Below are positions 18,144 to 51,223 of a stretch of DNA of 64,000 nucleotides, piece by piece. Each line of letters opens with the position of its first letter. The first letter of the stretch is position 1. Source of the DNA: Chamaelirium japonicum (taxonomy: Eukaryota > Streptophyta > Magnoliopsida > Liliales > Melanthiaceae); NCBI GenBank assembly GCA_947650365.1, contig CANTAL010000753.1, forward strand, positions 1 through 64,000, read 5' to 3'. The notes beneath the pieces are model-generated. The model was not told the origin of the DNA. It worked only from the letters and a program-made list of their open reading frames with translations, and did no database searches. The position numbers and the translations under genes were made by a program.

Positions 18144-18200
18144 TTGGGGGGGAAGGGTTGGTCGCGCCGCTTTGTGCCAATCGGCACGGGCATCTTTATA

Positions 18201-18507
18201 TCTATACTAAAATTGAAGCCTCTCTCCCGCGTTGTGACACATGGACATCTTTTAAAGAGCTAGAATTCTTCTTCTATGTGTGAACATGGCTCTCCTTTAA
18301 ATCCATTTAAAAACCTACAATAAAGATGATAAATTTCATTTAATGGCATTTAATGGTCATTTGATGTTAATCTATCTCTCTCTCTCTCTCTCTAACAAGT
18401 GAATCATACTCACTTCAGATTTTACACTTCTTCGAACAGTTGCGATGTCGTCTTTGCCAAATGGCATGCATCAAGCAAATTCGGGCATTGCCCGGGTTTC
18501 TTACTAG
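18201..18507 (+). mobile_element. Non-autonomous Helitron, copy 1
   Basis: The 307-bp unit starts TCTATACTAAAAT and ends CGGGCATTGCCCGGGTTTCTTACTAG. It therefore has a 5' TC, a short GC-rich palindrome about 11 nt before the end, and a terminal CTAG followed by T, which are the hallmarks of Helitron ends. It carries no ORF. The same unit recurs at 20327-21576. Confidence 0.75.
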
Positions 18508-18512
18508 TTTAT

Positions 18513-20324
18513 CTATCTATATCTATACTATATACTAAAACGAAAGCCTTACAAGGAGCTTTCGCCATGTGGCACATCATTAATTTTAATTTAAGCCTCA
18601 TAAATGGAAATTTAAACCCATTTCTCTACATGCTTAATGCTCTTATGATCTATTCCTTTCTTACTGACATTTGAACCCATTCTTGCATGTCGTTTTAAAT
18701 TAAATGCTCTATCGTCTGCAAACCATTTTCTCTCATTTCTCCCGATGCCCATTAGTGGAAAGTTAAACTCATTTCACCCGATGCCCATAAATACTCATTT
18801 AAAGCCGTTTTGCCTTCAGAGGATCCCGTGTTGTTTCTAATTCCTCTTGTATACTTGAGACTTGAGATACCCTGTACTTAATATCCGACGCTTGGGGAGC
18901 TTCGTTGACCGAATGTGAAAAGGGTGGGTTTATTCCCAACTAAACAAAATATCAGAGTAATTCCAAGGGTTCAACTCCTATTATGTAATAGCTCTCCATG
19001 AGATTTCAACGAGATTATAAATCACCTCCATCAAACCCTGCCGCTTCTTTAACTCCAATCCGACCCCCACCTTCATGGCAAGAACCACTACGATGACAAC
19101 CTCGGCGATGAGCTCCACTTCTCCGTCGAACTTCGCCGACCTCCTATGAAGTTTCTTATGGTGGTTTCTTATAGAGTCAGTCAGTACTCCTTCCGCATGA
19201 ATATGTATTACCCTCATGAATCTCTGTTTGTGTTTGTTTTTAAATATTTAGGCAATATCATTTCTTTTGGTTTACAAATTAGGTTGTTTTGGAATTTATT
19301 ACAGTTAATTTTAACATTATGTATCTTCTATTTTTTTCTCTTTGGTACTTGGAAGTAAGAGATGTTGAATAGGTAATAATACGTACATTAGTTTCTTGAG
19401 AATTTTATGATTTTTCTTTCTCGATATTTCAGGTGTCCTGAGCTGCAATGTTTCAGCCTAGAAAATCTTGAGGTATCCGACAAACAATTCTGTAAGGTGA
19501 TCAACAAATTTGATTTTCTTGAGGGCATAGGAGTGGACGAGAGTTTCATCTACCACGAAGGGCTCCAATATGTCTACCAATGCTGAGTGTACGACGTACT
19601 TCACCGAGCTGAAAGTATTTACTGAAACGGTGGCTGAAGGCATGGAGTCTGTCATCTGTGATTGTCTCCTTCAAATCAGAAAGCTTGATACGATGTATTG
19701 CACGATGTCCAGGATGATGACAATATATATTTGTGCATCTTGAATAATCAGGGTATTGGTCAGGGTTCAAAACAATCGAAGGAAGTCTGAATGGGCACAT
19801 GAGTTTTTTTAAATCATCTCATTTGTTGTATGGTTTAAAAGAAAATTATAATAATAATATTTTTTTTCTAGCTCTTTTTGATTCTAATATCATTGATTAC
19901 ATACCAAATACCACTGTGGGTTTGACTGGGATATATGTTTGGAAAATTATCAATGCCAATTAGAAAATCGATTTTTAGTAAAACTGTGATGATTTATATG
20001 CTTTATCCTAGGTTATATAGGTTGAGTTTTAGATTCCAACTTCTTAATTGTATAGCACAATTGAAACTAGGCCGTCGTTAAGTACTTTTTTAAAATATGC
20101 AACGGCTACATGCAGTATTCCCCTTTCACCCTTTCACAGTCGTCTCCACAATTACTTATCCGATTTTTTTTCCTCAAAAAAATGTTGGCATGGCCGAATT
20201 TATTTCTATTTATTCCTTCAATCTATTTTTTTAATCATAAATTCTTTTTTTCTTTTTTATTATAATATATTATTATTTATAATTTTAATATTTTATTTCA
20301 TGATTTGCACGGGTTCAATACTAG
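18513..20324 (+). mobile_element. Second, longer Helitron-like element
   Basis: A 5' head similar to the short Helitrons (TATACTAAAACGAAAGCC near 18533) opens about 1.8 kb of sequence that ends GCACGGGTTCAATACTAG, followed by T. That tail fits the Helitron CTRR-T rule and a GCACGGG half-hairpin, although the partner arm is eroded. It lies between copies 1 and 3 of the short family. The exact 5' end is uncertain. The interior includes a possible captured gene fragment (see 19434-19585). Confidence 0.45.
19434..19585 (+). pseudogene. Possible captured exon, F-box/LRR-like
   Basis: After a plausible acceptor (GATATTTCAG at 19424-19433) the plus strand reads CPELQCFSLENLEVSDKQF and then VINKFDFLEGIGVDESF. 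The spacing of Cys-Pro, Leu and Phe resembles the leucine-rich repeats of plant F-box/LRR proteins. It stops at TGA after about 50 codons. If real it is a gene fragment carried by the surrounding Helitron. The assignment is tentative. Confidence 0.25.
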
Positions 20325-20326
20325 TA

Positions 20327-20620
20327 TCTATACTAAAATGGAAGCCTCTTTCCCGTGTTGTGACACGTGGACGTCTTTTAAAGAGCTAGAATTCTTCTTC
20401 CATGTGTGAACGCGGCTCTCTTTTAAATCCATTTAAAAACCTACCATAAAGATGATAAATTTTCATTCAATGACATTTAATGGTCATTTGATATTAATCT
20501 CTCTCTAACAAGTGAATCACACTTACTTTAGATTTCACATTTTTTCGAACATTTGCAATGCTGTCTTTGTCAAATGACATGCGTCAAGCACATTCGGGCA
20601 TTGCCTGTGTTTCTTACTAG
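20327..20620 (+). mobile_element. Non-autonomous Helitron, copy 3
   Basis: Starts TCTATACTAAAATGGAAGCC and ends TTCTTACTAG. It lies two bases (TA) after the CTAG of the preceding element. It is the same family as 18201-18507. Confidence 0.75.
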
Positions 20621-20623
20621 TCT

Positions 20624-20922
20624 TCTATATATATACTAAAATGGAAGCCTCTCTCCCGTGTTATGACACGTGGACGATTTTTAAAGATCCAAAATCCTTC
20701 TTATGTGTGAACACGACTCTCTTTTAAACCCATTAAAAACCTACCATAAAGATGATAAATACTCATTCAATGACTTTTAATGGTTATTTGATGTTAATAT
20801 CTCTTTCTAACAAGTAAATCACACTCACTTCAGTTTTCACATTTCTTCTAACAGTTGCGATGTCGTCTGTGCCAAATAGCGTACATCAAGTTCATCCTGG
20901 CAATACCCGGGTTTCTTACTAG
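20624..20922 (+). mobile_element. Non-autonomous Helitron, copy 4
   Basis: Head TCTATATATATACTAAAATGG and tail CCCGGGTTTCTTACTAG. It is separated from copy 3 by three bases. It differs from the other copies by scattered substitutions. Confidence 0.75.
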
Positions 20923-20924
20923 TA

Positions 20925-21241
20925 TCTATACTAAAATGGAAGCCTCTCTCCGATGTTGTGACACGTGAACGTCTTTTAAAGGGCTAGAATTCTTCTTCCG
21001 TGTGTGAACGCGGCTCTGTTTAAATCCATTTAAAAACCAACCATAAAGATGATAAATTTCCATTCAATGACATTTAATGTTAATCTCCCTCTCTTTCTCT
21101 CTCTCTAACAAGTGAATTTCACACAAGTGAATTTCCCTCTCTTTAACTTCAGATTTCACACTTCTTCGAACAGTTGCGATTTTGTCTTTGCCAAATGCCG
21201 TGCATCAAACACATTCGGGCATTGCCCGGGTTTCTTACTAG
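20925..21241 (+). mobile_element. Non-autonomous Helitron, copy 5
   Basis: Head TCTATACTAAAATGGAAGCC and tail GGCATTGCCCGGGTTTCTTA, then CTAG. A two-base spacer (TA) separates it from copy 4. It has a local duplication of the AAGTGAATTTC segment near 21110-21135. Confidence 0.75.
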
Positions 21242-21243
21242 GA

Positions 21244-21576
21244 TCTAATACTAAAATGGAAACCTCTCTCCCGTGCTGTGACACGTGGATTGCTTTTGAA
21301 GAGTGAGAATCCTTCTCCTATGTGTGAACACAGCTCTCTCTCATTAATCTTATTAAAAATATATTATAAAGATGATAAATACCCATATAATTCTATTTAA
21401 TGATCATTTGATTAATTAGAAACTTCATTACTATTATATTTCTTTCTCTCTCTAACAAGTGAATCACACTTGGACGATAGGTGAAGACTTCTTTAGACGG
21501 ATGTGATGTCTTCTATGCTAAGTGATATACATCAAGTTCATCTGGGCTGCTGGGCATTCTCCGGGTTTCTTACTAG
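21244..21576 (+). mobile_element. Non-autonomous Helitron, copy 6
   Basis: Head TCTAATACTAAAATGG and tail GGGTTTCTTACTAG. It is the most diverged copy. It ends about 345 bp upstream of the SWAP70-like start codon, so the array forms the distal promoter of that gene. Confidence 0.7.
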
Positions 21577-21921
21577 TCTACTAGTAAATGTAGAGTAATA
21601 CTAAATGTACAAATTTTTATTCGCAGGAAACTGAACCTCCATATGTGTGCAGAAAAGAGCCCTTCATCATGGGTCCCGCACAACACATCATGGCGAACTG
21701 TAGAGCACGTCGCGTGTAAGTCAAAACGCATACATGAGATGGTTTCTCAGCATTGACGCCCAACAAATATATCGACCTTTTAGCCACCATCAGGTCCATG
21801 AAACCAACCCATCAGCTCCTACCTGACGACCCGCCCCCTCCTCCATTTCTGTACGGAAGAACTCGACCCAAAACCCTAACCCTCATCTCTTTCAAGCCCT
21901 CCACTGCTTCTCTTTCCCCAG
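21577..21921 (+). promoter_or_regulatory. Promoter and 5' leader of SWAP70-like gene
   Basis: This 345 bp separates the Helitron array from the start codon. It contains a telo-box-like AAACCCTAACCCT (about 21871-21883) followed by a pyrimidine-rich stretch (CTCATCTCTTTC and TTCTCTTTCCCCAG) directly before the ATG. Both are common in leaders of plant housekeeping genes. A weak TATA-like AAATATATC occurs at about 21765. The transcription start is not determined. Confidence 0.45.
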
Positions 21922-23355
21922 ATGATGGCCGCCAATGGAAGCTCCGCGGTAGCTTCTCTCTCTCGATCCGACTTCTCCCTCGCGGGAATTAGGGTTCCCT
22001 TTCTCCCCCTATTGCCCGACCCAGCTGAGCTCGAAATGTGTTTTAATTTTAATTTTAATTTTTATTTCAGAGGATGGTCGATACGGAAAGCAGCTTGGAG
22101 AAGATCAAGCGGCAGCTGACGTCGGGTTCAGGGAGGAATCTGCTGCAGGGCCCGCTTCTCAAGCGATCAGAGACGGTGTGGCCTTCGATTTGTCATTTTC
22201 GGTGAATTAGGGTTTGATTCTCTCTCGTTACATGGATTGTATGTTGAAAGTTGACTTTTTTTTTTTCCTGTTCTAGAACTCCAACATTGGAATAATTAAA
22301 TGCAGACTTTGGTGAAATTCGAAATCTGAAGATATCAAACACATAATCTACCAACAAAAACTTTCCTCTTAGATCCCTTAGGACGTTAATTAGATGGTTA
22401 TTCAGAAAATCTAGATGCTCGTCGGACTGTATGTCCGACGTCGCACCGTGCGAGGGGAATCTCCGACAACGCAATCAACTCAAAGGACTTGTTCTCAATC
22501 GTGGAAGACTTCACGTAATGTAGATTTCAGCAGCTAATGGGTTAAAAAAAAGTGGATGCATCTGCATTCTAAGGCTTAGGGTAGGTTTAGGGTTTGATTA
22601 ATGGTGTGATTAGAAGATATGGGCTGAAGGGAGCAGTAGGAGGCTAAAGAAGGGGGTGCCAGCCATATCTAGGCTATTGGAGGCAATCGGCTAGCTGATT
22701 TTGAGATATGGGATAGCTGGATGTGCTGCACAACTCGAGGGCCAAATTAGTCTAATTTTGATAGAACAAAGGGATAGCTGGTTAGGGTTTTAACACGAAT
22801 GCCTTTCATTGGACTAGGGTTAGGGTTAGATGTGATTGGATTAATTATTTAGGCTCAGATGTCGTGTTTTGTGCTGAAAGCATAAAAAAAGAAGTGGATT
22901 TGGAGAAGAGGGGATATAAAACAGAAGAACCTTGGGCTTCACACCCTCTGGACTCACTCGGGGTCGTTGAATTTTTTTGAAGTAATGCTCAAACTCATCC
23001 ACAAGAAAGTAAGAACTCAACTTTTTATTCATTGAGTGACGTTCAGCATATGCGTGCACACGCACGCGTGTGTGTGTGAGGAGAGAGAGAGAGAGAGGGG
23101 GGGGGGGGGTTAATAAGTCTAGTAAGGGCCGATGACTAGAAAAATGCCCCTAGTTTTATGATCCCCAAGTCGCTCTGATATGACTCAGGCTACATGAAAC
23201 ACTTAAACCGACTCAACCATCCACTGCTTGACAAACCCAATTACATCCAATATACTGAGTTGCCTAACCTAATCATACCCAAACTGAAAAAACTAAAATT
23301 AATAACTAAAACCACACAATAACATCAACTCCAAAGCCAAATTCTATGATGGCTT

Positions 23356-23387
<32 letters not shown>

Positions 23388-23475
23388 AGTGAAGTGTTCG
23401 GATCGCGGCGACGCAGGCGGTCCGCCGCTCGTGACGTCGCGAGAAGTCCATTGAACCTTATCATTTAGAGGAAGG

Positions 23476-23509
<34 letters not shown>

Positions 23510-26500
23510 TGGAAGGATTATTGTCGAGACTCGAAAAACACGACCGGAAGACCGCGAACGCGTGAACGGAATCCCGCGGAGGGGGGAGGGGCCCGCCCCC
23601 GCCCCACCTCCGCGCCCCCCGCCCGCACCCCCCCCGGGCGTGTGTGAGTTGATGTAAGAACTCAACTTTTTATTCATTGAGTGGCGTTCATCATATGCGT
23701 GCACACGCACGCGTGTGTGTGTGAGGAGAGAAAGGGGGGGGGGGTTAATAAGTCTAGTAAGGGCCGATGACTAGAAAAATGCCCCTAGTTTTATGATTCC
23801 CAAGTCGCTCTGATATGACTTAGGCTACATGAAACACTTAAACCGACTCAACCATCCACTGCTTGACAAACCCAATTACATCCAATATACTCAGTTGTCT
23901 AACCTAATCATACCCAAACTGAAAAAACTAAAATTAATAACTAAAACCACACAATAACATCAACTCAAAAGCCAAATTCTATGATGGCTTTTGTGTACGT
24001 CTTCAATCTCGCTCCCTTGTGGTTCTAGTCTCCATCAATTCTTCGTGACTTGGAAAAATTTGCCTTTGGTGAATGAATCCTCAAGCATTGATTGATGTTG
24101 CCTCTCTGAGAAAAGTTCCGACCCGTATGTACGACATAGCTTCATAGGGGCAATCTAGTCATTTATTAAGTCGGTTATGACCCATTATGTTTTCTTTTAT
24201 ATGGTGGAATGAAAATGTATGAAAGGTCTTGGAGAATAAACCTGGTGAACCGTGAGGTTAAGTTTCCTTTTATCATCTCTTATTTGACACTCCCCCCCCC
24301 TTTTTTTTTCTTGTCTTCAATTTTTATTCTCCTTATTTTTTCGTTTTTTTACCTTTCCTACAATTTTGTTTGTTGCCTTGTTCTCAGATTTTCTGCTGCA
24401 TATATAGTCTTATTGAATTCAATTGAGGATATGCTGATTAGACTTTTGTGCTCATGAATTGATATTTTGGATATGAATCTACCTATGATTTCTTGAAAAT
24501 ATTGCTCCATCCATATATATAATGACTCTTGGGTTGAATTTTCTGCATTAAGCTTATATTGTCTTCATAGGCATCATTTAGGGCTAAGTCCCACTATTTC
24601 TGCATTGATTTTATGAAATTAGCATTGCAGATGTGCAGGATAGCAAGCATTCATTTAATTATCCTTAGATCATATACATAGGACCAATATTCCCAAAAAT
24701 GATTAATCTTCCTAGGGTTACCTCAAAATTTGGGTTATTGGTATCGCAGACCAAAGTTTTCAGACGCGAAGGCATGACGGGAGGCATTTTGCTGGCCAAA
24801 GCCTTGAGGCGTGAGGCGTGAGGCGTAAGGCGTAAGCCTCAAGCGAGTGTATGTTTTAATTAATTAAATATATAATAAATATAGAAATAAATATTAATAA
24901 TTAAATAAAATATAAAAAATAAAGAAAGGAATGAAAATTAATTGTTTCATATCATAATCCACGATTTCACATCCACACATCATAATAGTTTACCAAAATA
25001 TATACATAAAGTATGTAAAGTGTGTCATTATATCTAAATTGAACAATACTTGAGAGTTGAGACAATATGTATAAAACTCTAAGTTCCAAGTCAAATGAAC
25101 CAAATCCACAATTCCATATAATACCACCATAAAATTCTAATTAAATCCATAATTTCCAACCGAAAGTTTTAATCATCGGAAATAAAAAGCACACTTAGAA
25201 ATTATAAATTGTCACTTTAACAAAAAAAACACAAGTCGAAGATTTGCTCAATCAAATTGGAGCTCTTCATCTTCTATAGTATTAAAAGCAACTTCGGGGA
25301 CCATAAACTAGTGTTTTTTTGTTTAAAAACACTCACTTTATTAAAAAAATTACCAAAATCAAGCATAGCTGAGGCTTACGCCTCGGGTTTGAGGCGTACG
25401 CCTCAGCTGCACCTCAGCCTGTGAGGTATACACCTCAGTTGTTTGCACTCCTCATACAACGCCTTTGGTGCGTTTTTGCTGCTCCTTGCTCTGAGGAGGG
25501 CCTCGAGGCATAAGCCTCAGGTGCCTTTGAAAACATTGTCGCAGACATGTGCAGCCCTTGGTTATGGAATTACAATAGGGGAAGATTTCTTGGACAAGAG
25601 ACTGCTATCTTGCAAATCTAGGTGCTGTGAATCCCAAAACAGTGGGTATCTACAAGATTATAGGCTTGAATTTTAGGTTCACCTAGAAATTAAAGAGGAT
25701 AAGTAAAAGAAGGTTCCTTATAGTATAAATCTTGGATTCGTATGAGGAGGTTTTACACATAAATTTAAGGGTTTATGAGGGATGATAATAATATGCAGCA
25801 ATGCACGGCATAATAAAAAATTGAGTTTTCTTGGATCCCGTTTGGTTTTATAGGTCAATGTTGCTTTATAGATAGCCAACACCATGTCATCATTAATGGA
25901 AAAAAAACTATTGTGTTCATGTTCTCAGGGTTTGAAGAGGAAAATGTCGAAAGAGACATATAAGGATTATTCATATAAGCGTGACGATGGTGTAGATGGT
26001 TAGGTGATTTAAATGAATAATTTTAATTGTTTTTTTTTGGATACGTGATTGTGAAATTTTTCAAAAAATAATAGATTACCTAATATGGTTATATTTCTGC
26101 TTATGATATTTGCTTGAATTTATGGCTATGATAGGGTTATGTTGCTCTTGCTGATATGTGATTAATATTTGCAACATATAATCATTGTGGTTGTCGCGTG
26201 ATTCCTATTTGTTGCAATAATAATGGTTTTGTAGCTTGCCATACACTCTGGATCATACCCATTATCAAATAGTATTATTTCGACCATATCTCTATCTAGA
26301 AATTAAATTTTATTATACATTAAATCACAAATTATTTATTTATATATATGACTTATGTTTATTTAATATGTTTAATTTTTTATCGCTTAGGCCTCGTCTA
26401 GGCAGACCAAATCGTGTAGGATCGCCTTGACTATACTGATATAAGGATAAGAAGAACAAAAGAGGAAGAAACGAGGAAGAAGAGAAGAGAAGTGTACCTC

Positions 26501-28142: not shown

Positions 28143-31100
28143 GGACGGGGAGAGGTTCGAACATACCACCCGATCTCAATGTCAACGTGTTAACCATGAT
28201 ACAGATAATTTAGTAGATGGCCTTGGAAAGCAGATTGAAGAAAACTAGCTTTTGATGTTGTGATGAAGTAAAAAACCTTTACCTAATGCTATAACCGATC
28301 TAAAATTTTATACTAATTCGAATGATTATCATTTTAAACTTCGTTTTGATTGAAACAAACCCTATTCCCCGAAAATTAATGCCAAACCATCGTAGGCTAC
28401 TACTTTCCCTTCATCCCAATATCATAGATTATATTAGTCATTGGAATGCATTGTCATATGAAAAGTGATTCCTTCAATTGACTGTAAGAAGATTTTGGCC
28501 ATGGGAAGGTATGACCCAAACGTGACGTAAAGAAGTAAGAGAGTTGCCTGATTGGCTAATGAGGTATATAAATCTACCTGAATCATCAATTTCTTAAATT
28601 AAACATAGGTCTTTTGATCTTTATTTAGGGGATTTAGACTTTAGAACATTTAGTCCATCTCTCTGGCCAAATCAACTCTTCCAATCTTGGTTGGTGTACA
28701 CCTTGATAAGTGATGCACATCGCTGAAGAGTTTATAAGACCTTTCCAGCCGTCATGTATTATTCTGTACGCTATCCATCCAAGGACCAATTATAGATCTG
28801 GCTAGGGTGTCACTGTTTTTCTTTCTGGGATCAAAACTAACATTATTATTCTGAAGTGTTTATTGCACATATTATTTTGTCTTCTATCACCCATTTAAAA
28901 TAAATATGGGGTGTTGGAGGAATTGCACATTGGATGAGTGCCATTTGAAAATAAGTTGTGTGATTTGGGATTTACTGACGAGCTGTAACAATATTTGTTC
29001 ATTTTATTTAAACAGCTCAGGAAATGGAATGAACGATGGGTGATCCTAGACCCAACTACTGGAAAGATGGAATACAAGTATGGTTTCGGGACGTGTTCTA
29101 TGAGAAGTCTGCGATAAATTCCTATTACCTTTTGCCTTACATTGCAACTCATTGTTTGCTTTGCATAGGTTACGAAGAAATGAGACGGTTGTCAAGGGAA
29201 CAATCGTATTTGACTCCAACAGCACAATAACCGTGTCCCCTGTGAATTTTCAGTAAGATTATTATTGATAGACATCCATGATCACTCTTTAGGCATGGAT
29301 TAGATAGTTGCTGAACTGTTTTCTTGTTTTGCATTTTGCAGTGGACTGCCAAAGTATGATGGTTGCTGTTTTTGTATCCAATTCCTCTATTTGAAAAGAA
29401 AAATTATTTATAGTGTCACTATCGAATTCAGATACGACCGCTATTCCGGTGTTTCTTAATTAACTAACTAGATATTGGAACCCCACAGAAAAAGGAGTAT
29501 TTCCTTTGTGCAGAAACTCCTGGTGCTGCAAGAGCTTGGGTATCCACTCTACAGTAAGCTTGTGGAGCTATACTTCGCATACATTGTTGAATACTTTGTT
29601 GCTTGTCATGACCGTTTTTCTCATCTTTTTGTAGTATTGGTCCTATTGGATAAGTATCCAATTTGTGGAGATCTATAAAAGTGGACATATGAAAATAATT
29701 TTACTTTATCCATTAAGACTGCATACCTGTTATTTATATATATGTACATATGTTTTTACATCTCCTACCCTCTAACGAGATTGTATTCTTGCATGTAAAG
29801 TAAATACACCTATTATATCTATATATTTTCATTTTTGATAAAATGCTTTTTGACAAGTGACGGTGAAGTACCTCATCCTAAAGAAATGAATGAGTATAAT
29901 AAACGCTTAAATACTAACCCAATGACATTATGGTGGCAATAGATCAAGAACAAATCCCATTCACTTCGTTGTAATCGCATTGTGATATTATTAGATGGCC
30001 CTAAAGTTTATTGATTTGTATTTTAATTTTTATCTTGAGAATAAGTCGTAGTTCATCGTTATCATCCAAGTCTTATTCCATTACAATGGAGACGACTACT
30101 GAGTACAACTCGAGTCAAGAATGCTCCACAAAATAATTGGCAAGACTTTTCCAACCGGTTGTCGACCTGACGTTGACTCTCTAAGATAAGGGCTGACAAT
30201 GTGTCGGGCATGGCCTGGACTCAACCACCGGGCCCAGGCCCATATTTTTTTCTTCTACCCAAGCTCTGGCCTGTTTTGTCTTGAGCTATAAAGTCAAGGC
30301 CCAAGTTCAAGCCCATATCAATGATTCGAGCCTGGGCCGGGTCCTAGCCCAAAAGCCTTCAATGACCAACTAACTTTCTTCAGTGGAGTTATTTGGCATT
30401 AATCGAGCTTATTACTACTACTAATATACATGTTATTATTTTATAAATTGTGTTGTAAGATTGCAATGACTATAATTAACTCCTAGATTTTCTCCAATAG
30501 ATTGTTGTTATCTCATCGTCAAAGAGTTCTAAGGGATTTGTTTGGCTCAAAAGCTTATGCATAGGATAAGAACCTTGAATGTGACAAAATATAACAAGGA
30601 ATGACATTCTCTTCATCGTTTAGGTCTTCTACGAAGGCTGGCGATCTTTTGCATTAAATAGCGAGGGAGGTAAATGAGATTGCATAATTGGCTTGATAGT
30701 AAGAACATCAATTATTTAGCTGCTTGACATATATTCACACTCGACTCTTAACATGCTCAACTTTCATTTTAGCTTGATGTAATTCAAGAATGCGATTCAG
30801 GTCATATCATGTCAGTTTGATGGGATAAGGGGCATGATCACATTATACATTATGTATCCTAAATTCCTAATGCAATATTTCAGGATGTAGCATTGTTCCA
30901 TCCAGTAACTTTAGGCATTGATATGAATAAAGATGCTGGAACCCAATCAACAAGCACCAATGCCATAATACACACCACACGAGATTGGATAGAAAATCCT
31001 GTTATGTTCGTTTGGAAAGGAGCTTGGAGCATAAGTTAAGGACACAAGTCATCCTAATGCAAAATTTGAGGATGTGATTCAATATTCTCCAAAGTTTAAT

Positions 31101-33668
31101 ACACATATAAACATAGTGCTGCTACACTGCCAAAGCATTATTGCCATAAAATACACCACATAATATCGAATAGAAAAGCTTTGAAAGTTTTTTTTTCTTC
31201 TGAAAGTTCTACTAACGTAGAACATATGTTATTTAAGAATTACCAGACTAGATAATGTTATTATGACTTATATAGAGAGGGTCCACATACATTCTAGGAG
31301 CTAGCTTTATTTACGAGTCTCATTATCGGTAATGATGAAGACATGCCATCTAAAGGAGGGGACAAAAGGAGGAAAGTGAAGGTTAAGTCTTGAGATAAAG
31401 AATTGAGGATGACATCTCCTTTAGCAAACACCCCTTATAGAAAATAGCACATGCTTGATAAATAAGTTCCCTTTCACACCGACGATCTTGACCACCTTGT
31501 TGGTAGTGTCTATGTCCAACCTTTAACCTTAGTTATCTATTGGCAACATTAAGAGGGCCTCCCTCGAAAGTAAATTTACCAAGGTTTGAGAATTCGTGTT
31601 CGGATTCAGAGGAGCAATAAATGAGCTTGTTCGGACATTACAACAAAAATAAATTTATAAAAAGAAACAATAAGAAATTCATGTTTGATTCGGCTAATTC
31701 GGGTCTGACTTGGTCAATCCAGATTTGATTCAAGTTTGATTTGGTCGATTTGTGCATGATTCGGCCAAAGCGGGACTGATTCAGCCTATTTTGGATCCTA
31801 TCCAGCCGCTTTGGCCAATGCAGTTTCGAAGCAGCCCACATTTTTGTGTTTGGGGAGGTGTTTCAGTTCTAATTGGCCAAAATCCGACGGTTTAGGGAAC
31901 CGATTCGGGTTTGGACAAAAACTCAAACCATGAATTTTATTATGAATTTGGTCAGGTAATTGAAATGCTTCAAGGGTACTAATCTTAGCTAAACTTGAGC
32001 CTTGCAAACCGATTTGGTCCAGCAAAGGTTACAATAACCTGTCCACTAAGGTCCACTCTTAATCTTATCAATACCACATATGCTTTGCATCACTTGGAGC
32101 GATGTTCCTAATTAATTATTCCATAATTCAGATATCATAAGACTTGGACTGAAATGACTGAATTGGATAGGAACCGGGGGATCAGCCCCTAATTTCTTAT
32201 TTGTTTTTCTGCCTTCTTTATGTTTTTGGCCGAAAATAAGTCGAACCAGGCGAACCTAAATCCGTTTGTTTTTTTCCCTGGTCGAACACTAACCTGAATT
32301 CTCAAATCTCGTACCCAAATTCTCAAACCTTGGAACTCACTTATGATGGGTTTGCGAATGGATTTTTCTTGGTTTATGTTTTGTCACTTCAATGAACTAT
32401 ATGTTTTCGACCATACCACTGTTCTTTGTCAAAAATCGTGCAGCTTTAACATAGTTCCATGTGGTTCTCAAATCGAACATTATCTTTTAGTTATGTGACT
32501 AAATGATTAACATGATAGATCCTCAAAGGTTCATTGTTATTTGAATTCAATTCTTAATATAGGCAGTCCAATTTTTTCTGACTTCTCATTATATTACATC
32601 CTGTCAAACAATCAGCGCAACTCTGTTGGTACTACGAGCTCATAAAGAGGCTGTGAATTCCTTAAGTGGCAATGGTTCTGCAAAATTAGGAACAATTGCC
32701 ACCGTGGTTGCAGCTGCCAACTCTACTGCAATGGAAGCATCCAAAGAAATTGAAGCAGCAATGAAGGTCGCTATGAGAGCAGCTTTGGGCATGGTGACAA
32801 ATAAGGCAAATGAAGGCCACTTAGATAATCTAACAATAATGAAGGTATATATCTAGCTAATGTTTTTTTTCTTCATATGGTGTTTAAAGTTTAAACCATC
32901 GCTCACAGAAATTGTTCAATGGTCACCTTTTATTTGCTCAAGTTTTGACATCAGAATATAATTTCTGATGTATATTAGATGTGTTCGACTACTGGTGATA
33001 TTAGTTTATTCATGCAGTTATTGATAGCTTTCTGGTGTTTTCTTTGGTAACTCTGTGTTCATTTGTCCTCTACATCAGAAACAGGTCTTCTATTTAGTTA
33101 TTTGTATATGATTTACAATTATATGCCAATAATCTAAACTCCAAAGGATACACAAGCCTTCTAGGAATAACCTTCCAAGGATATTTCTATTCCCAAAGTA
33201 AGTGGGTACCTTTCTATGACAGTGTTTGGCTTTTAGCATATTGGTGGGAAAACCGACCCGGTTCGATTGGAGGTGATGCGTGTTTACACAAGGAGGACAA
33301 CCCATTCGATTGGGCTCTGGTTTGGCGACGACTGCTAGATGTTGGGCCAGCCCTTACTAGAGTCTTTTATTTGTTGCATCTAGTTTAGCCTTTATTTAGT
33401 CTATTTTTGGATTAATCAATAGGTTTATTTTTAGCTTTATGCAAGCCCGGTATATAATGGGCCTTTTGGTTATTTTTGGGCCCAATACCCATTAGGGTTT
33501 TGGGAGGACATTATTTATTTGGATTGCAGCCATCTCTTTTCATAATGTTGAAATAAAGAAAGAATGGAAGTTTTCTCTAGGTTTTGAGAATCTATTGAGC
33601 GTAGAGACCTCGAGTGAGAGCGAAATCTTTGTTAAGTTCTTGTGTGATTTTGATCATAATCTTCTCTG

Positions 33669-36700: not shown

Positions 36701-39700
36701 TTTCTGACTCTAAAAATCGTATATTTTCAGAATAAACTTATGGAGTCAGGAATTCAAATGATAATTTTCCATATTGCTGTAACGATTATAGAGATGACTT
36801 TGGTAAAACTCCGTACTAGTCCGTTCTATTATTTTTAAACGCTGTCACTTAAAGCCATATGGAAAATGAACTAGGAATAATGAATTAACACATATTGGGA
36901 TTGTTCTTTTATCCAAATTAAGGTTTATTAACATTCGTGCATTTGTTAGGGTTCAAGCAGCCATTGAAATATCATGATAAATTTTGTTGATCTCTATCTT
37001 GTTTATTTTGTGGTACCCATTAAGTTTGTCTGCATGAACAAGCGTATTTTTTGTTTTTTTTTTGGAATTTGTTAATGTGAGAATCTATAGTCATTGATAT
37101 GACTAGTTATTGTGCATTTTTCTTGTGTTTTCGTAGGAGACTCTTCGAGTGAAAGATGAGGAACTACAGCAGCTGGCGAAGGATCTCCGTGCTCGAGATT
37201 CCACCATAAAAGAAATTGCCGATAAGTTAACTGAGACCGCTGAGGCTGCTGAAGCTGCTGCATCTGCAGCACATGCAATGGATGAAGAGAGAAGAACTGC
37301 GTGTGCAGAAATTGAGCGCCTAATCTCGGATGCAGAGAAACAATCAGAGTCATCCACGCGTAAGGTACCTACTTTTCTTTTCTTGTAATCCAGATAATGC
37401 TTGATGATAGTTTCTAGTTGGTTTGTCATAATATGCGTACACATTGCAAGAAATGCTAGCATTTGGTTTGTTAATAATTTGAATAATGAAGCCAATGAAC
37501 TGGAGCTTATCAAGTACAACACTAATAATTATGAACTAGATTAATGCTAATGAAGTCATCTCTTTTTATAGCTTTAAAGTTTACTTGTTGAATAATGTTT
37601 CTCACATTTTCATTTTTTGTTTGGTATGGATGAGCTTTAATCTCAATTTTCTTCCTAATCGAATCTAACTATTTGTTTCAGCTATCTTTCCAACTTCTGC
37701 ATTTATGAGTTATGACCATGCAACGATGGTGTTTTCACTTATTTTGCTACAAATGATATTAATTTGCCAAAAATAATTTGAAAATTATTAAAAGATCATG
37801 CTAAACATGAAAGGTAGACAATGACATGGGATTGTTTTATTTTTAGCAAGGTCATCTGGACCATCTTGACACTATTAAAAAAGTAACCATTCAACCCATG
37901 TGCATAGTCCTATCTTTCCAACTGTATTTATGAGTTATGACCATGCAACGATGGTGTTTTCACTTATTTTGATACAAATGATATTAATTACAAAAAAAAA
38001 TTGAAATTATTAAAAGATCATGCTGAATATGAATGCTAGACAATAACATGGGATTGTTTTATTTTTAGTAAGGTCATCTGGAACATCTTGACACTATTAA
38101 AAAAGTAACCATTCAACCCATGTGCATAGTCCATATGCACATGGGTTGTGGCCGTAGGCCAGACCGATACAACTCGGACTTTTTGGGTCTAACTCGGTTG
38201 TATTGGCCGATACAACCCAACTTGTATTGGTATGAACCGTCTCAGGATCCATACTGATACCAATCCTTTCATCGGCTTCGGTCTATAGTAAACCGATATG
38301 AATAAGCCGATACGACCATAGTTATCAAGTCGGAAAACGAAAAAAAAACGGCAGGGAAAAAATCGGAAAGATATGATGAAAAAGGAAAAAACGGGGAAAA
38401 AAAAACGTGAAAACATCGAAAAAAACAAAAAAAATCTTAAAAATTATACCAAGTTTGTATAAATGTCATTTTCCAATATTAAGTAATCAAAAGTTCAAAA
38501 CATATAGCATATGCGTTTATTAAGCACGAACAAAATAAAACCCGAACCCAATTTAAACCCGGACCAAACCCGACGTGTTTTATACGCGTTTTTCCCGTTT
38601 TAAACACGTACAAAACGCGTACGGACGTTTTCTTGAAAAAAAACGAGTTTTTTTCCTGTTTGTTACGACTTCGGATCGATACGCCCGATTTGGTAACTAT
38701 GGATACGACATTATTGGCCAATTTTCTGAACCATGGTGCTATCTGTGGTTTTCATTTATGAAAGAATAAAAAAGACGGTCTAATGCTTGTTAAAATGTTA
38801 GGCACTTGAAATTTTTGGCTTAGAAGCATGGTTGCAAGTGTAATATCCTGTTTCATTTGACTTTTGGGTTAGCAGGCACAAATTGCGAGCCGCTAGGTGA
38901 CTAGGAATTCTCTTATAATGTGCTGTGTCACATAAACAGTAGATATTGTGAGGGCTCGGAGTCTTGGATCGCACTATTACTTTCGACGTTCAAGTTACGG
39001 AATTAAACCCAACTTTGCCAATAAAAAGCTAAAAGAAGAAAATGAAGAGAACACTGACTGTTTTGATACTTAGCAAATTTCAATTTCTGGTATAAGTAGC
39101 CCTTGTGCTTCGTGCTTCGTGCTTCGTGCTTCGTGCTTCGTGCTTCATGCCCTATACATAATTAGAAAACTGGACATAATGGTAATTATTCTGATGAACC
39201 AAATTCGAGTATGCAGGGACCCTCCATGTGTTTCCTTAAGATGCATGCTACCATAAATGTTTCCTGATCCTCAGAGATTTCAAATTCAATAGTCCGATGT
39301 ACTTCATCCTTTTTCATCTCAAAACTTTCGTCCAACTATAGAAGTATTATTAAATTAGATGTTACATGAAATACCTGAAGTTGTTTCTTCTGCCCTTTTC
39401 AGTTGAGAGAATTTGAAGAAAAGTTGGTGGTCCTGAGCAAAGAGAGGGAGGTTCTATTCAAGCAGAGAGAGTCTGCGTTTCAAGAGGCACTACTATGGCG
39501 TTCTGAGCTTGCAAAAGCTAGAGAACGTGCTGTTGTGTTGGAAGCAGCTGTTGTTAGAGCTGAAGAAAGGGCCAGGGTTGCAGAAGCAGATGTTGAGGCT
39601 CGATTAAAGGATGCCGCGGTTAAAGCAGCGGATGCTGCAAAAGAGAAGGAAGACCTTCTATCATTGGTGAATATTTTGCAATCACAAGTTCAAAGGTTTG

Positions 39701-42629
39701 GTTTTTGGTCTCTCCCCTCTACTCACAAAAGGCCTACTTTTAATGCTTATGTTATAATGTTGCGTGCATATAAATTCTGCTCTTTTATTTGTTTTGAAAC
39801 TTGTGGAGCAAGTGCTGAAAATTACCAAATATCGACAATTATAACGGAATACCAGCCCATTAGTAAGTCAACACACTAAAGAGTTGCATGTTTAGGGTCC
39901 TTGTTAGGGCTATAATTTCAAAAGGTATGTACTCGTACGTAAAGTTGTAATTAATTTATACATGTGGATAACAAAGTATAACATGGTTATGTCTCATATG
40001 TGCAACATGTACACACAATTATCTATGTCAAACTCAATTTGGATAATACACCAAGCATTTACCTTGACAGAAAGAATCAACCATGGTGGTGGGCATGGGG
40101 AGCTTTCCTATTCAAGCTGTCCCACCAAAAACTCGCCTCCCAATGACAGAAATCTATTATTGTGATCTTGCTCAGTTTGTTCAAAAAAATCTCCATTCTC
40201 TTTAAAATTCTGCTCAAGTCACTGAATTAAACCTAGCTTTGCGAATAAAAAAATCTGCACAAAAGAAGAGGAAGAAAGCAAAAAGAAGCAAAAGAGCAAA
40301 ATGGAAGAGAGGAAGCGGTCCTCTGGTCCTTCTCTCCCTCTCCCTCTCCCTCTCTTCCTTCTCTGCGTACAACCACAAGCCGACCCCTATTACTAGCCGC
40401 CTGAAAGAGGAGCAAGCTCCTCTGTTCATGTGACGGGCAGCCGCACGGGAGTAAAATCCTGTGCCTTCTGGCACCTGGGGCACCCACGTGGATTTGGGGC
40501 ACCCCATATTTAAAAAGAATAGCAGCCGCAACATCTAAGGGAATCCCAAGGCTGCGATATGATAGAAAGAAATTGTACTGTCTTTTCGAAGACTTGCTAA
40601 ACTCCATAGCCCTTCCGGTATCCTCTTCCGACAACCCTCGTGCTGGGCTCTCATAAATCACACGAAAACATTGGATCTCCTCTGCAATGCTTCTGCGATT
40701 CTCTGAATTATCGAGATTTCTTCCATCATCTCCCTCAATCTATAAGAAAAGAAGTTTTTCTTTCCTTTGGAATATTCTTCGGTTTCTCCTCTGCAATGCT
40801 TCTGCGATTCTCTGAAATTCCATCGTTATTTTATGTTTGCTTGAGATAGTACCCTAAAATTACATGAACTTGAGGCCATTGCAATCAAACCTTGTCGAGC
40901 CATATATTATATTTCTTTCAAATCCTTTGAAGACAATTAGGAACTTTACTTAAATCCGATTAAGCCTAAAAAATTCTAACTTCCATACGGTCTGCCCGCG
41001 AAAACTTTTCGCATGACCCAGATGTGGACTTGTAGGATCTAGGCCTTCCTCTAATATTTAATCATAACCAGCAATAGTTTCCGAATAACTTAAAATTTTT
41101 AACTAATTTTAATCATCATTGTTGAATTTTAATCTGAAATTTAAATCTTTACAATAGATCTTGTTCCTATACTTCTCCGGCATCAGTACCCCTATAAGTT
41201 TCTATTCTTTCATGGAAGTAGCACCCAAGACTTCCTTTTTTATGCTACAACCTTGTAGGTGTGTGGGGGCCACTGATTAGTGCCGACCACTGTTAAAGCA
41301 ACTTTTAATTTCTTTTTCTTAGCTTATATAGTACCCTTTTTTTCCATAACGTTCACCATCCTAAATCTAATCTGAATCATTCATCTAACCCACACTATTT
41401 GCAAATAATCCACCTGGATGCACGAAATATATAAAAGCCCATACTTGGCGAAACTATTATGGAAAACTATGTGGAGTTAAATTGGATTTGAGTTACGTTT
41501 GAAACATAGGACACTACATTGGTTTTCGTTCTGTCCACCATATAGTAGGGTTCGAACATTTGATCGAACCAGTTCCCTGAAGGACCTGAACCAGTTCAGA
41601 ATTCAACCGATTTCAACCTATCAGAAATGAAACACCCCTCCAAATCCGGCCGGTTTGACCGAATTGACTAACCCGATTATTAACAGTGCGAGTTGGGGCA
41701 TGTTAGTTCGTTCGGGGTCAATGGGTCACGAGATGGTCACAGTTTTTCGGTTGGGTAAAAGGCAGAGATCACATTCGTGGTCCTATAGTTGCATGCACAA
41801 CTTGGAGAAGCCACCAGCCGGAAGGTTTCGTTGTACACTGGGGTGGCCACAAGATCCTTGCTGGATCATCACGGTATGTGGAGGTCTATCACAACTCACA
41901 AGTAACGATGTTATTGTACGCCTCAGTATCATCTCAGCCCTTCAGATTGGCATGTAATCTTGCAAAATACTTCATAGTTTTGCTCCAATGTTGCGAATAT
42001 AATTTCCAATACTAGTACTATCTTTTCCAAGTTAAAAAGTAGATTGGTAAAGGTTTTTTGAATGAGGATGGCCTTTGATGGGGCACATTACTTGCAAAAA
42101 GTACTGGAATTGTGGTCTCACGGTCGGTCTTGCTTAGTCATCATCACGGTCGTACGGTCACTTTATTATTTTGTAAATTGCTTGTAATTACAGATAATTT
42201 TTTCTGATATTGTGTTATTTTTGGTTATTTTTTTCCTTTGTTTCTCATCAAGTACAAGAAGATTGACAATAATAGTTACCTTGCAGCCAACAGAGCACGA
42301 CAAAGCAGGTACTGGAAGAGAGGTTGGAGTCCTGCTCTGGCGCCGACGACACCCTTCCATTGACGAAACATGTGGACTCATCGGAGGATGATGTGGACAA
42401 AGCTTGTTTAAGCGACTCAAGGCCGGTTCGGGTTTCGGGGGACAGTGTCGTCCAATTGGCAGTCGACGGTGTAGAGATCCGCTCGATCGGTGATGCTGAG
42501 TGGGGCGATTTCCGTACTGCAGACGCAAGGATAGCTGATGTGAGGGAGATCTCTCCCGAAGCAGAGGTAAGCAGCTTCGACGTACCTGTCGTTAGCCCAC
42601 CAGTTGACGAACACCAGAGGAACTTCTAG
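21922..42629 (+). CDS. SWAP70: SWAP70-like PH-domain and coiled-coil protein
   Basis: Ten exons: 21922-21993, 22071-22175, 29016-29077, 29169-29252, 29342-29373, 29472-29553, 32616-32844, 37137-37364, 39403-39695, 42287-42629; 1530 nt, 509 aa. All junctions are GT-AG and phases agree. Residues about 47-148 form a pleckstrin-homology domain (LLQGPLLKRSETLRKWNERW, GLPKYDGCCFYIGTP, CAETPGAARAWVSTLHAT). Residues about 224-395 are a Lys/Glu/Ala-rich coiled coil, and the C-terminus carries DVREISPEAE and DVPVVSPP. This is the architecture and length of plant SWAP70 homologues, Rho-GTPase (ROP) exchange factors that bind phosphoinositides at membranes and act in immunity. Exon 1 (MMAANGSS) is the least certain: its donor is weak, and ATG 22074 in exon 2 is an in-frame alternative. 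Introns of 2-6.8 kb are filled with transposons. Confidence 0.92.
23009..23355. repeat. Direct repeat flanking rDNA insert, left copy
   Basis: The copy begins GTAAGAACTCAAC and ends CTATGATGGCTT. It is almost identical to 23654-23991. It includes a GTGTGCACACGCACGCGTGTG-like segment, GA and G runs, and GGGCCGATGACTAG. Differences are a few substitutions and a shorter GA/G tract in the right copy. Confidence 0.9.
23356..23653 (+). repeat. Captured rDNA fragment (18S 3' end plus ITS1)
   Basis: 23356 to about 23522 is the 3' end of nuclear 18S rRNA, with ACCGCCCGTCGCTCCTACCG, GTCGTAACAAGGTTTCCGTA and GTGAACCTGTGGAAGGATTA. About 130 bp of GC-rich ITS1-like sequence follows, starting TCGAGACTCGAAAAACACG. 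Relative to the conserved 18S end there are at least two changes (CTGTGG for CTGCGG, ATTATTG for ATCATTG). It is a fragment, not a functional rRNA gene. Confidence 0.92.
23654..23991. repeat. Direct repeat flanking rDNA insert, right copy
   Basis: Second copy of 23009-23355, resuming with GTAAGAACTCAAC directly after the ITS1-like sequence and running to CTATGATGGCTTTT. Confidence 0.9.
24752..25538. mobile_element. hAT-type MITE, 787 bp
   Basis: Perfect 8-bp target duplications TCGCAGAC lie at 24744-24751 and 25539-25546. The ends CAAAGTTTTCA and TGAAAACATTG are inverted repeats. Subterminal GAGGCGTGAGGCGTAAGGCG motifs on the left pair with CTTACGCCTC and TACGCCTCAG motifs on the right. The AT-rich core has no transposase. 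An 8-bp duplication indicates hAT-type transposition. It lies in SWAP70 intron 2. Confidence 0.82.
28098..28139. repeat. CT microsatellite
   Basis: About 21 CT dinucleotides lie in SWAP70 intron 2. Confidence 0.9.
30861..31175. repeat. Diverged tandem duplication in intron 6
   Basis: Two segments with a shared order of motifs (CTAATGCAATATTTCAGGATG / CTAATGCAAAATTTGAGGATG, ATTGCCATAAAATACACCACA / AATGCCATAATACACACCAC, and GATTGGATAGAAAA / ATCGAATAGAAAA) lie about 195 bp apart. They look like an old tandem duplication with no known identity. Confidence 0.45.
31579..32333. mobile_element. TIR element, about 755 bp
   Basis: The left end CCAAGGTTTGAGAATT and the right end AATTCTCAAACCTTGG are perfect inverted repeats of 16 bp. 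The interior has repeated TTCGG/GATTCGGC motifs and no coding capacity. I found no convincing target duplication, so the superfamily is open. It lies in SWAP70 intron 6. Confidence 0.6.
33340..33670 (+). mobile_element. Possible solo LTR in intron 7
   Basis: A TG...CA unit (TGTTGGGCCAGCCC ... CTTCTCTGCA) of 331 bp has a TATA-like GTATATAATGGG (about 33450) and AAATAAAG (about 33550) in LTR order. No clear target duplication is seen, and a CT microsatellite follows at once. The call rests on layout only. Confidence 0.35.
33671..33729. repeat. CT microsatellite
   Basis: (CT)n with one interrupting T lies in SWAP70 intron 7. Confidence 0.9.
35219..35947. mobile_element. TIR element, about 730 bp
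   Basis: The left end AAGGTTTGGAGTTTCGG and the right end, whose complement reads AAGGTTTGTAGTTTCGG, are inverted repeats. TCGTAC occurs on both flanks and may be part of a target duplication. Subterminal GAAACCGAAAC motifs are also inverted. Non-coding; it resembles a Mutator- or hAT-type MITE. It lies in SWAP70 intron 7. Confidence 0.55.
36560..36850 (-). pseudogene. LINE reverse transcriptase fragment
   Basis: On the minus strand the sequence includes SIGSLKSPGLDGFPALF, the conserved block upstream of the LINE reverse transcriptase active site. The fragment is short, has no catalytic FADD box and lies in SWAP70 intron 7 opposite to the gene. Confidence 0.6.
37683..38132. repeat. 228-bp tandem duplication in intron 8
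   Basis: Copies at 37683-37910 and 37911-38132 both run from TATCTTTCCAACT to CCCATGTGCATAGTCC with few differences. The second copy joins the first without spacer. Confidence 0.9.
38317..38701. mobile_element. hAT-type MITE, 385 bp
   Basis: Perfect 8-bp target duplications GATACGAC lie at 38309-38316 and 38702-38709. The ends CATAGTTATCAAGTCGG and CCGATTTGGTAACTATG are inverted repeats with two mismatches. The interior is AT-rich with repeated AAAAAACG and no ORF of note. It lies in SWAP70 intron 8, inside another repeat rich in CCGATAC motifs. Confidence 0.82.
39105..39146 (+). repeat. Heptanucleotide repeat (GTGCTTC)6
   Basis: Six perfect copies of GTGCTTC lie in SWAP70 intron 8. Confidence 0.95.
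40676..40822. repeat. Short direct repeat in intron 9
   Basis: CTCCTCTGCAATGCTTCTGC followed by GATTCTCTGAA occurs twice, starting near 40677 and 40789. The open frame over 40233-40661 on the minus strand has no recognisable domain and contains a low-complexity Glu/Gly/Arg stretch. Confidence 0.6.
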
Positions 42630-48981: not shown

Positions 48982-51223
48982 TCAAGAGGATCGACACTCG
49001 TAGACGATGAGCGGATCCATCATGAACTCCATTATCCTCCCGAGTTCATCCCAATTCCCTTCTCTGTAGAGCTCATCTGCGCCCAGATTCGGAGTACTAG
49101 GTTGCAATGCTGCAAAGTGAGCTTGGGCTGGTAACTGGTTCGACCCTTCGACGCAAGCGGTAGCTATAGAGGCTCCATGCTCGTCTCCGGCATCGGACTC
49201 GAAACTACTCGTTATCGAACTCGCATCGGTCGGAATTTGCTTGCTGGATGATCCTTTCCAAACTTGCGCGAATTTCTTGTAAGTGGAGTTCCTCTTGAAG
49301 ATTCGACATATTGTCCAAATCTCCTAACAACCAATTAATTAAGTTGATTATCAGTTCATTTAGAGTTGATCCATAGGCTAACACATCGAAAAGATCGAGA
49401 TTGAGGGGAGTAAATCTATCTCACAGCTTCTTGGATGGTGGGGGAGTCGGTGTCGACGCTGTTCTTCCCGCCAGAGGGGATGCGGAACTCGTGCATCATC
49501 CAGTCCGTCTTGGTGCCCTTCCCCGCGCTCCCTCGGTAGTAGACCAAGGACTTCTTGAGGCCGATGCACCCGCCACCGCCGCTAGCAGCAGCGGCGGTTA
49601 TCGGCCGATCAATGCCCGTTGCTTTCCAGAATCCAGACCCTGTCACTCTGTTGGGCCTTATGCTGTTTCTGTACTTCCTGCCCCTCAGGCAAAAGAAGTA
49701 CCATTCCTTCTCCCCCACAGTGCTAACCTCTGAAACATAGCCACATAAGTATTAATTACCTTACATCTAAATTCTATATCTAATTTCCAAAACTTGAAAG
49801 AAAAGAAAAATCAAAGATATATTCTTCATATCTACTCACCATTTGGGTTGGATATAAGATCTCAAGCAGTTATTACCATGCATTTTAATTCTATATCTAA
49901 CTTACAAAACTTGAGAAATAATATTCGCAAGTAAAGAGTGCTAATGAAATTGAACTTCGAGAAAGCATTTGATAGAATCGATTGGTCCTTCGTCTTTATT
50001 CTGGTTGTTGATATCTTTGACTCGATCATCCATCGTGCAGTATCGACAAGCCTGTTGATGGGCATCAGAGATCCTTCCTAGCCGAAAAGTCTCTAATTTG
50101 CACTTTGCGGATGATATCATCTAGCTTATTTTGCTTGCTGACCCAATGCAAGTCATTAATATTACTCTGAAAACTATTTTTTATTCCTTTGAATTCTGCT
50201 CTAGTCTTAAAATAAATTTCAATAAAAGCTCGTTATACTATGTCGGAGATCAAGTCTGGAAGAACGATCTACTAGCTCAGTTTCTTAACCGTGGATCAGG
50301 GGAACTACCTTCTGTGAGATTTACCACACTCGGCAGGTGCGTGTACGGTTAGGTTCTGATACCATGTGATATTTCCTCTATCCCAAGACCCAGGTATTGA
50401 GATGAGGTCCCATCATACATATAAGGATCGTTTTCGTCCTCTATTTTACCAAGGTGGGTCGACGAATGACTTATCGTTCTACATCGAGAAGATAGAAAGA
50501 GGACTACCGATCGAGTTGGAAGGGTAAATTACTGTCCTTAATTGGGAGGGAGGCTTACTCTTATAAATCCAATATTATCTTTCATCCCTACTTGCTCCCT
50601 CTTGGGTTATCCGAGCTATTGATATGATCAGGCACATATTTCTTATGCATGCAGCATTCACTATCTCAAACACTCCTGATTCCTTTTATTGGAGTCTAAC
50701 CGGTTCGAACCAGCTGATGCTAGTAGTTATTTGCAGGAACACAAGAAGCCCTTAATTTAATCACCACAAAAGAAATGTATTTTGCCGACGAACTATTTTA
50801 TTATCATCGGTATAATATAGATTTTTATCGACGGCAATAATAATTTTCATCGGTATAATAACTTCCTTTTTTAACATTTTTTTAAATTTTAATTACCGCC
50901 AAGCAATAAATAGTTGTTGGTATAATAGTTTTGCCGCCGGCTTATACTATAGCCATTGGTAAAATATTATTTATTACCGACAGATAGTAATTTACAGTCG
51001 GTATTATGAATTTTTATATATAATAAAATTTTAATATTATTTACCGACGGTAATAATAGAGCCATCAGAAAATATGTAATTATTTTCGACAGTATAAAAC
51101 TTTTGTCAATATTAATATTTATTTACCGACGAAATATTTGAGTCCGTCAGTACAAATCCTGTGATTAATTTCATCCCAATCCCCTCCCTGCACTAACTAT
51201 TGAATCGATCGATTGATCGAGAG

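Follow-up and report, generated by a model that had tools for sequence, protein, structure and literature searches.

Structure of the locus

The window, which here means the whole stretch of DNA analysed (positions 1 to 64,000 of contig CANTAL010000753.1, or C765, of Chamaelirium japonicum), contains a protein-coding gene with an intron of ~6.8 kb, and within this intron, between the exons at 22071–22175 and from 29016 onward (exon ends placed by eye), a fragment of ribosomal DNA (rDNA) lies between two direct copies of one sequence, referred to as unit 1 and unit 2. Approximately 340 bp of intron sequence that was already there now forms a tandem pair, with 283–285 bp from the 18S rRNA gene and internal transcribed spacer 1 (ITS1) and a 13–15 bp filler at the new junction. 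Together, these components are probably the scar of a single double-strand-break repair event, a tandem duplication whose junction took up ectopic rDNA. The features of the locus are as follows.

22071–22175, forward strand: upstream exon, encoding RMVDTESSLEKIKRQL...LLKRSET (open frame; cag/gt boundary by eye)
23009–23355, forward strand: unit 1, the first copy (347 bp), adjoining the old left flank (local alignment and blastn)
23046–23110, forward strand: hairpin around TGCGTGCACACGCACGC with (GT)n, (GA)n and a G run, inside the unit (DNA fold of 23040–23115, z −3.88)
23356–23523, forward strand: 3' end of the 18S rRNA, starting inside ACAC^ACCGCCCGTC (Rfam RF01960)
23524–23638, forward strand: 5' part of ITS1, its end uncertain by 2 nt (23638–23640; aligned with 10 rDNA copies of the same genome)
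23641–23653, forward strand: filler TGTGTGAGTTGAT at junction J2, 13 nt (15 nt with the CG at 23639–23640), without a match in the 10 own ITS1 copies
23654–23990, forward strand: unit 2, the second copy (337 bp), adjoining the old right flank (local alignment and blastn)
from 29016: next exon found, encoding LRKWNERWVILDPTTGKMEYK / LRKWNERWVILD... (open frame; boundaries by eye)

A first-pass annotation, made from the letters of the window alone, had placed the rDNA exactly between two near-identical direct copies of 345 bp each, and the alignment returned this arrangement (23009–23355 and 23654–23990) while changing the lengths to 347 and 337 bp. The units differ by eight substitutions over 337 aligned columns and by a 10-column gap in the (GA)n/G run in the local alignment, or are 94.8% identical over 347 columns by blastn (E 8e-159), and a blastn search of the window recovered no third copy. 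The outer and inner edges of the two copies agree to the base, which is required of a tandem duplication with an insert. The stretch at 23046–23110, with its hairpin and simple repeats, is possibly break-prone and is a possible template for part of the filler.

Origin and extent of the rDNA insert

The Rfam model SSU_rRNA_eukarya matched 23356–23515 (128.7 bits, E 1.7e-34), and with a shorter query the match extended to 23523, the end of the model, while starting 16 nt before the insert, an upstream overhang that was taken as a spurious extension. The ~117 bp that follow the 18S align with ITS1 of 10 rDNA copies from the same genome; because all 10 of these copies continue differently from 23639 on, the rDNA is placed as ending at 23638–23640. 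The initial assignment of the entire ~298 bp to the 18S 3' end and ITS1 was thus supported by Rfam and by the genome's own copies for all but the last 13–15 bp, which match none of the 10.

For the 18S upstream of the insert, the sequence context was taken from another organism's 18S (L001; NZ_CP050525.1, 1–1764), which was one record from a distant search of a plasmid collection, served only as an 18S reference, and was the sole comparison, in place of own rDNA, for the first 57 nt of the insert. This record is deposited as Acinetobacter baumannii plasmid pVB7036_2, yet holds a eukaryotic, plant-like 18S rRNA sequence that ends in letters which we take to be an Illumina adapter, and it is probably the result of library contamination. 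Exact patterns from the 18S and the start of ITS1 had no matches in any of four scans of genome-contig and viral-contig collections, which gave no lineage of the kind that ITS1 had been suggested to help identify.

Compared with the references, the insert has five changes common to the two contigs that carry it (see below) and four private ones, a count that omits positions 23414, 23451 and 23584, where the references disagree, and 23639, which was taken as the end. Eight of the nine are C-to-T or G-to-A, a bias in the direction that would be expected for methylated DNA.

The outer boundaries predate the duplication

A search of the assembly (1.52 Gb in 3253 contigs, searched in part) listed 41 matches, a number that is a lower bound, and these comprised the two contigs that carry the structure (C765 and C2), 14 matches to rDNA, 21 short matches that fall within query positions 40–109, the simple repeats of the unit, and four diverged homologs of the unit, all of which were aligned to the window with their flanks. 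The left edge (23008/23009) is crossed by L019, which aligns with window 22752–23311 at 60% identity and, under stricter scoring, retains a separate piece at 22951–23032 (74%) that also crosses this edge; the same homolog ends 5 nt short of the right edge. The right edge (23990/23991) is crossed by L018 (23779–24040, 75%) and by L020 and L021 (both 23782–24038, 72%), the last two having identical alignments that were counted once. Since diverged homologs run across both outer boundaries, these boundaries are old sequence and not transposon ends, and only the two inner junctions are new. The locus therefore presents two direct copies of local, pre-existing sequence with old, continuous outer boundaries, the pattern of a tandem duplication.

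A further homolog, L031, also crosses the left edge, in an alignment that begins at 22358 and extends 22 nt into the unit (62.6% over 722 columns). It has a second alignment, to part of the unit, and it adjoins a protein-kinase-like exon. It had been considered as a paralogous intron of the same gene, a candidacy that was dropped in view of the kinase-like exon and of the strand read containing none of the sought exon words. Because this homolog neighbors a kinase-like exon without the exon words of the host gene, the duplicated stretch is regarded as a dispersed repeat, and the region at ~22.36–24.04 kb looks like an old repeat of this kind within the intron, of which the unit would be an arbitrary piece. 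The earlier description of the units as intron sequence holds with respect to their position in the ~6.8 kb intron, with the refinement that they derive from such a repeat. In the same region, window 22456–22607 weakly matches (~70%) repeats that lie near the ends of several contigs (e.g., C7, C6, C5, and C3) and may represent an intronic relative of a subtelomeric repeat.

A second contig and the age of the event

The same exon and the same unit–rDNA–unit arrangement, with identical junctions, are present on C2 (122.5 Mb) at C2:104914303–104915281. Over 10,001 columns, C2:104909300–104919290 is 99.23% identical to the window, with 63 mismatches and seven gap openings, and the private differences between the two include four in the rDNA, two in unit 1 along with a change in the length of the GA/G repeat, and one in unit 2. 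Judged by this ~10 kb of compared sequence, C2 is taken to be the other haplotype, with a recent segmental duplication as the alternative, and the structure is very likely real.

Each contig has eight differences between its units over 337 columns, and outside the simple repeat there are seven on the window and six on C2, with five common to both contigs. At substitution rates of 5e-9 to 1.3e-8 per site per year, seven changes correspond to an age of ~0.8–2.1 million years (My; Poisson range, 0.3–4.3 My), roughly three times the divergence of the two contigs (0.63% mismatch). Shared changes number 5 of 285 positions in the rDNA and 5 of 674 in the units (two copies), a difference that is not significant (Fisher p 0.17), and the changes in rDNA and units are compatible with one age. 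The event had been called fairly recent, which is a fair description as long as it is not read as very recent, given an age about threefold that of the contig divergence.

The two new junctions

Junction J1, between unit 1 and the rDNA, reads GGCTT/ACCGCCC, with GGCTT joined to ACCGCCCGTC, and the corresponding 18S context in L001 is ..TACAC/ACCGCCC, such that there is 0 bp of microhomology. Junction J2, between the rDNA and unit 2, holds the filler, which has an 11-bp inverted match (23645–23655 to 23957–23967) and 9-bp direct matches to the GT repeat of the unit, and all 13 nt of which are covered by unit-derived words of at least 8 bp. On the bottom strand, going outward from unit 2, the sequence is TTAC-ATCAACTCA-CACACG-CCCGGG. 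Here ACATCAACTCA recurs on the top strand toward the unit's distal end (23957–23967; 11 bp, 2 of which overlap the primer end), CTCACACAC is also present in the GT repeat of the unit, on its bottom strand and with an overlap of CTCA, and the overlap with the rDNA is at most CGC. At a base that differs between the units, L020 and L021 have CTCA rather than CTCC, and for this reason the template of the 11-bp match may be the ancestral form; in L018 these bases are CTCT. Inverted matches of at least 8 bp were found neither at J1 nor at the left outer edge.

The frequency of such matches by chance was estimated with 4000 random 13-mers of the window set in the position of the filler, with shuffled fillers, and with 4000 13-mers of the rDNA insert. 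Among random window 13-mers, 0.55% had an inverted match of at least 11 bp, 3.2% a 9-bp direct match, and 1.5% full coverage, while 0.175% combined the inverted match with full coverage. The respective values for shuffled fillers were 0.55%, 1.4%, 0.7%, and 0.025%, while 13-mers of the rDNA insert gave direct matches in 0.45% and none of the other three outcomes. A filler of at least 6 bp copied from the flank is expected of a templated insertion, and the 11-bp inverted match is of this type, though recognized post hoc. Owing to the post hoc nature of the chance tests, templating of the filler from the unit is considered likely rather than proven. The suggestion that a tandem duplication had acquired filler at its junction was borne out in that both rDNA and a short, probably locally templated filler stand between the units.

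Mechanism of formation

Old outer edges, new inner junctions, and the agreement of two contigs bear out the proposal that break repair duplicated local sequence, and they are among the grounds on which repair of a double-strand break is held to be the probable origin of the structure. Two ends, each with a copy of the stretch, would have been left by a break whose nicks were widely staggered or by a collapsed fork. Template switching would then have extended the 3' end at which unit 2 begins in steps, at first by 9 nt that were primed by 'AC' and templated close to the unit's far end, then by 4–6 nt from the GT repeat of the unit through the overlap CTCA, and then by ~285 nt of rDNA through an overlap of CGC or less, before the extended end was ligated to the end of unit 1 without homology. 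Synthesis on the one side could have been of the type seen in polymerase theta-mediated end joining (TMEJ) or in microhomology-mediated break-induced replication (MMBIR), with capture on the other side resembling nonhomologous end joining (NHEJ). The junctions are asymmetric, with 0-bp homology at J1 and filler at J2, which would fit the extension of one end by template switching followed by its capture through end joining. The most specific form of this model, in which a single plant repair event let an extending end visit three templates in turn (an inverted far-end copy, the GT repeat, and ~285 nt of rDNA) before end joining, with the break itself giving the ~340-bp duplication, is put forward tentatively, as a conjecture that is on balance doubtful.

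Several observations weigh against repair of a break in the form described here. When 5000 positions of the window were drawn at random, 1.9% had an inverted match of at least 11 bp within 350 bp, and the right outer edge, itself old sequence, has one of 9 bp. The chance tests on the filler were framed after the match had been seen, and the GT-repeat template is of low complexity, with a 9-bp direct match in 3.2% of random window 13-mers. The 45S array was not recovered with the one exact pattern used, so that no donor is assigned and the end of the rDNA is set, to within 2 nt, from dispersed copies. The ~340-bp duplication exceeds the small (<100 bp) class to which the fill-in model is applied in PMC8355091.

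The same product could have arisen during replication by fork stalling and template switching (FoSTeS) or MMBIR, if a fork stalled at the repeats of the unit and the nascent strand moved to rDNA and then to the start of the unit, with no two-ended break. Overlaps of 2–4 nt between successive templates at J2 and the hairpin, GT, GA, and G-run sequence within the unit are consistent with such an origin, while the 0 bp of microhomology at J1 suits end joining better than priming and leans slightly against it. A replicative origin is a possible, if less probable, explanation.

A small circular DNA made up of one unit and the rDNA could also have integrated, by homologous recombination, into an intron that held the unit once. 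In structure alone, this would account for direct repeats on both sides of the rDNA and for outer boundaries of old sequence. Both new junctions would first have to form in a circle of ~640 bp, followed by a crossover within 340 bp; nothing observed requires a circle, and among the 41 matches listed, itself a lower bound, only C765 and C2 join the unit to rDNA. This route is considered improbable.

A composite transposon or long terminal repeat (LTR) element, with the units as repeats and the rDNA as interior, would account for the overall repeat–interior–repeat shape and for the dispersal of related sequence. Homologs continue past both outer edges, however, the units begin with GTAAG and end with GGCTT rather than having TG..CA ends, there is no target-site duplication (TSD; the flanking 5-mers AGAAA and TTGTG differ), the interior begins inside the 18S, and no primer-binding site or polypurine tract was seen in an inspection by eye. 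With TG..CA ends, a TSD, and element ends at the outer boundaries all lacking, transposon readings were rejected as highly improbable, in accordance with the first-pass view that this was not a transposon signature. Finally, as an abundant sequence, rDNA can give rise to chimeric reads, and both contigs come from one assembly, but a simple chimera of assembly or library is very unlikely, to the point of being negligible, because two separately placed contigs share the same junctions yet carry private substitutions in units and rDNA.

rDNA elsewhere in the genome

One exact pattern search with 36 bases from the 3' region of the 18S gave no matches in the 1.52-Gb assembly, and the canonical 45S array may be absent from the assembly or differ at the 36-base site. 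Arrays of a ~23-bp satellite (GAATGAATTAGAATGGATCGTAC-like, by eye) bear rDNA cassettes (L011–L016, L024, and L025, on C7, C98, C31, C11, C160, C69, C55, and C190), and all nine copies looked at consist of an inverted 26S 5' end followed by the end of the 18S and ITS1, with the full cassette through a second 26S end read in L013 only. In the cassettes, the 18S part begins at about GTAGGCGG, after the inverted 26S 5' end, and the insert begins 57–59 nt further upstream in the 18S than in any of the nine. Because their 18S starts later than that of the insert, the dispersed cassettes were rejected as its source as they stand. The rDNA-derived satellite may merit separate study. None of four other rDNA fragments (L017, L022, L023, and L026) lies between direct repeats within the 0.39–1.06 kb on each side of them; direct repeats are present at L017 and L023, with both members of each pair on the same side of the rDNA, and L026 contains 210 N.

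Host gene and neighboring features

The host gene is presumably of the PH-domain/coiled-coil, DEF6/SWAP-70-like type, as its peptide resembles plant proteins of that kind. The exon-joined peptide has a Pfam PH match below the cut-off (E 0.021), and none of three single exons (29019–29084, 32563–32853, and 39379–39870) had a match in Pfam, in a set of seven proteins of which the remaining four did. Elsewhere in the window there are exons of NAC (NAM domain) transcription factors at 49416–49751 and 63641–63913, both on the reverse strand, and degenerate telomere-like TTAGGG/TTTAGGG arrays on both strands at 51789–53290. Several ~300-bp copies that start with TCTATACTAAAAT and end near GCCCGGGTTTCTTACTAG, mostly in tandem, occupy 18199–21600 and are, from the form of their ends, presumed to be non-autonomous Helitrons.

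Comparison with known repair products

The structure probably belongs to the repair-associated tandem duplications, ordinary in kind and unusually legible, with an apparently templated filler and capture of rDNA. Plant tandem duplications have been attributed to opposite-strand nicks (Vaughn and Bennetzen 2014, in rice; Schiml et al. 2016, in Arabidopsis; as cited in PMC5730883), and the introduction of PMC8355091 refers to such work and discusses a fill-in model for the class of <100 bp. The locus shares with these cases a direct local duplication, and differs in its size of ~340 bp and in the 283–285 bp of rDNA and the filler at its junction.

In Arabidopsis, according to PMC10923293, capture of the left border of transfer DNA (T-DNA) needs TMEJ, often with filler, while the right border can use classical NHEJ (cNHEJ), and TMEJ fillers arise by iterative microhomology-primed synthesis and often map to the flanks. 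Relative to those T-DNA insertions at CRISPR breaks, the locus is alike in its flank-templated filler and in having one junction attributable to TMEJ and the other possibly to cNHEJ, and unlike them in that the captured DNA is rDNA and that the target is duplicated rather than deleted. In yeast, one end can prime synthesis at microhomology, including at inverted local copies, with NHEJ capturing the other end, and very few insertions in rad27 cells come from rDNA, unlike those in Dna2-deficient cells (PMC11724301). The hybrid of synthesis and NHEJ is the common element here, whereas the yeast insertions come from an induced-break assay, and tandem duplication of the target is not described in the parts of that paper seen. 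In vertebrates, inserted copies with filler and microhomology have been found at breakpoints inside transposable elements (PMC2671141); such inserts resemble the one described here, but that survey removed donor–insert pairs within 50 bp in order to exclude tandem duplications, and the word rDNA is absent from its main text. Among the titles and abstract openings listed for literature on rDNA caught at breaks or in introns and on dispersed rDNA-derived repeats, none described such an arrangement, which is not a claim of its absence from print.

Significance

The structure is presumably passively transmitted intron DNA without evident function, the rDNA part of which is decaying mainly by C-to-T and G-to-A changes. 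As a natural tandem duplication that captured rDNA at its junction, it can be dated, is present on two contigs and has ancestral boundaries that can be recognized, and the apparent order of templates at J2 along with the zero-homology J1 makes a hybrid model of synthesis plus ligation readable from sequence. The occurrence of ITS sequence in an intron, away from the rDNA array, is relevant to ITS-based identification. If the repair event did pass through three templates as tentatively proposed, the locus would be a complete fossil of long-range hybrid TMEJ/MMBIR repair with an rDNA donor, and plant introns could repeatedly acquire rDNA by such a process.

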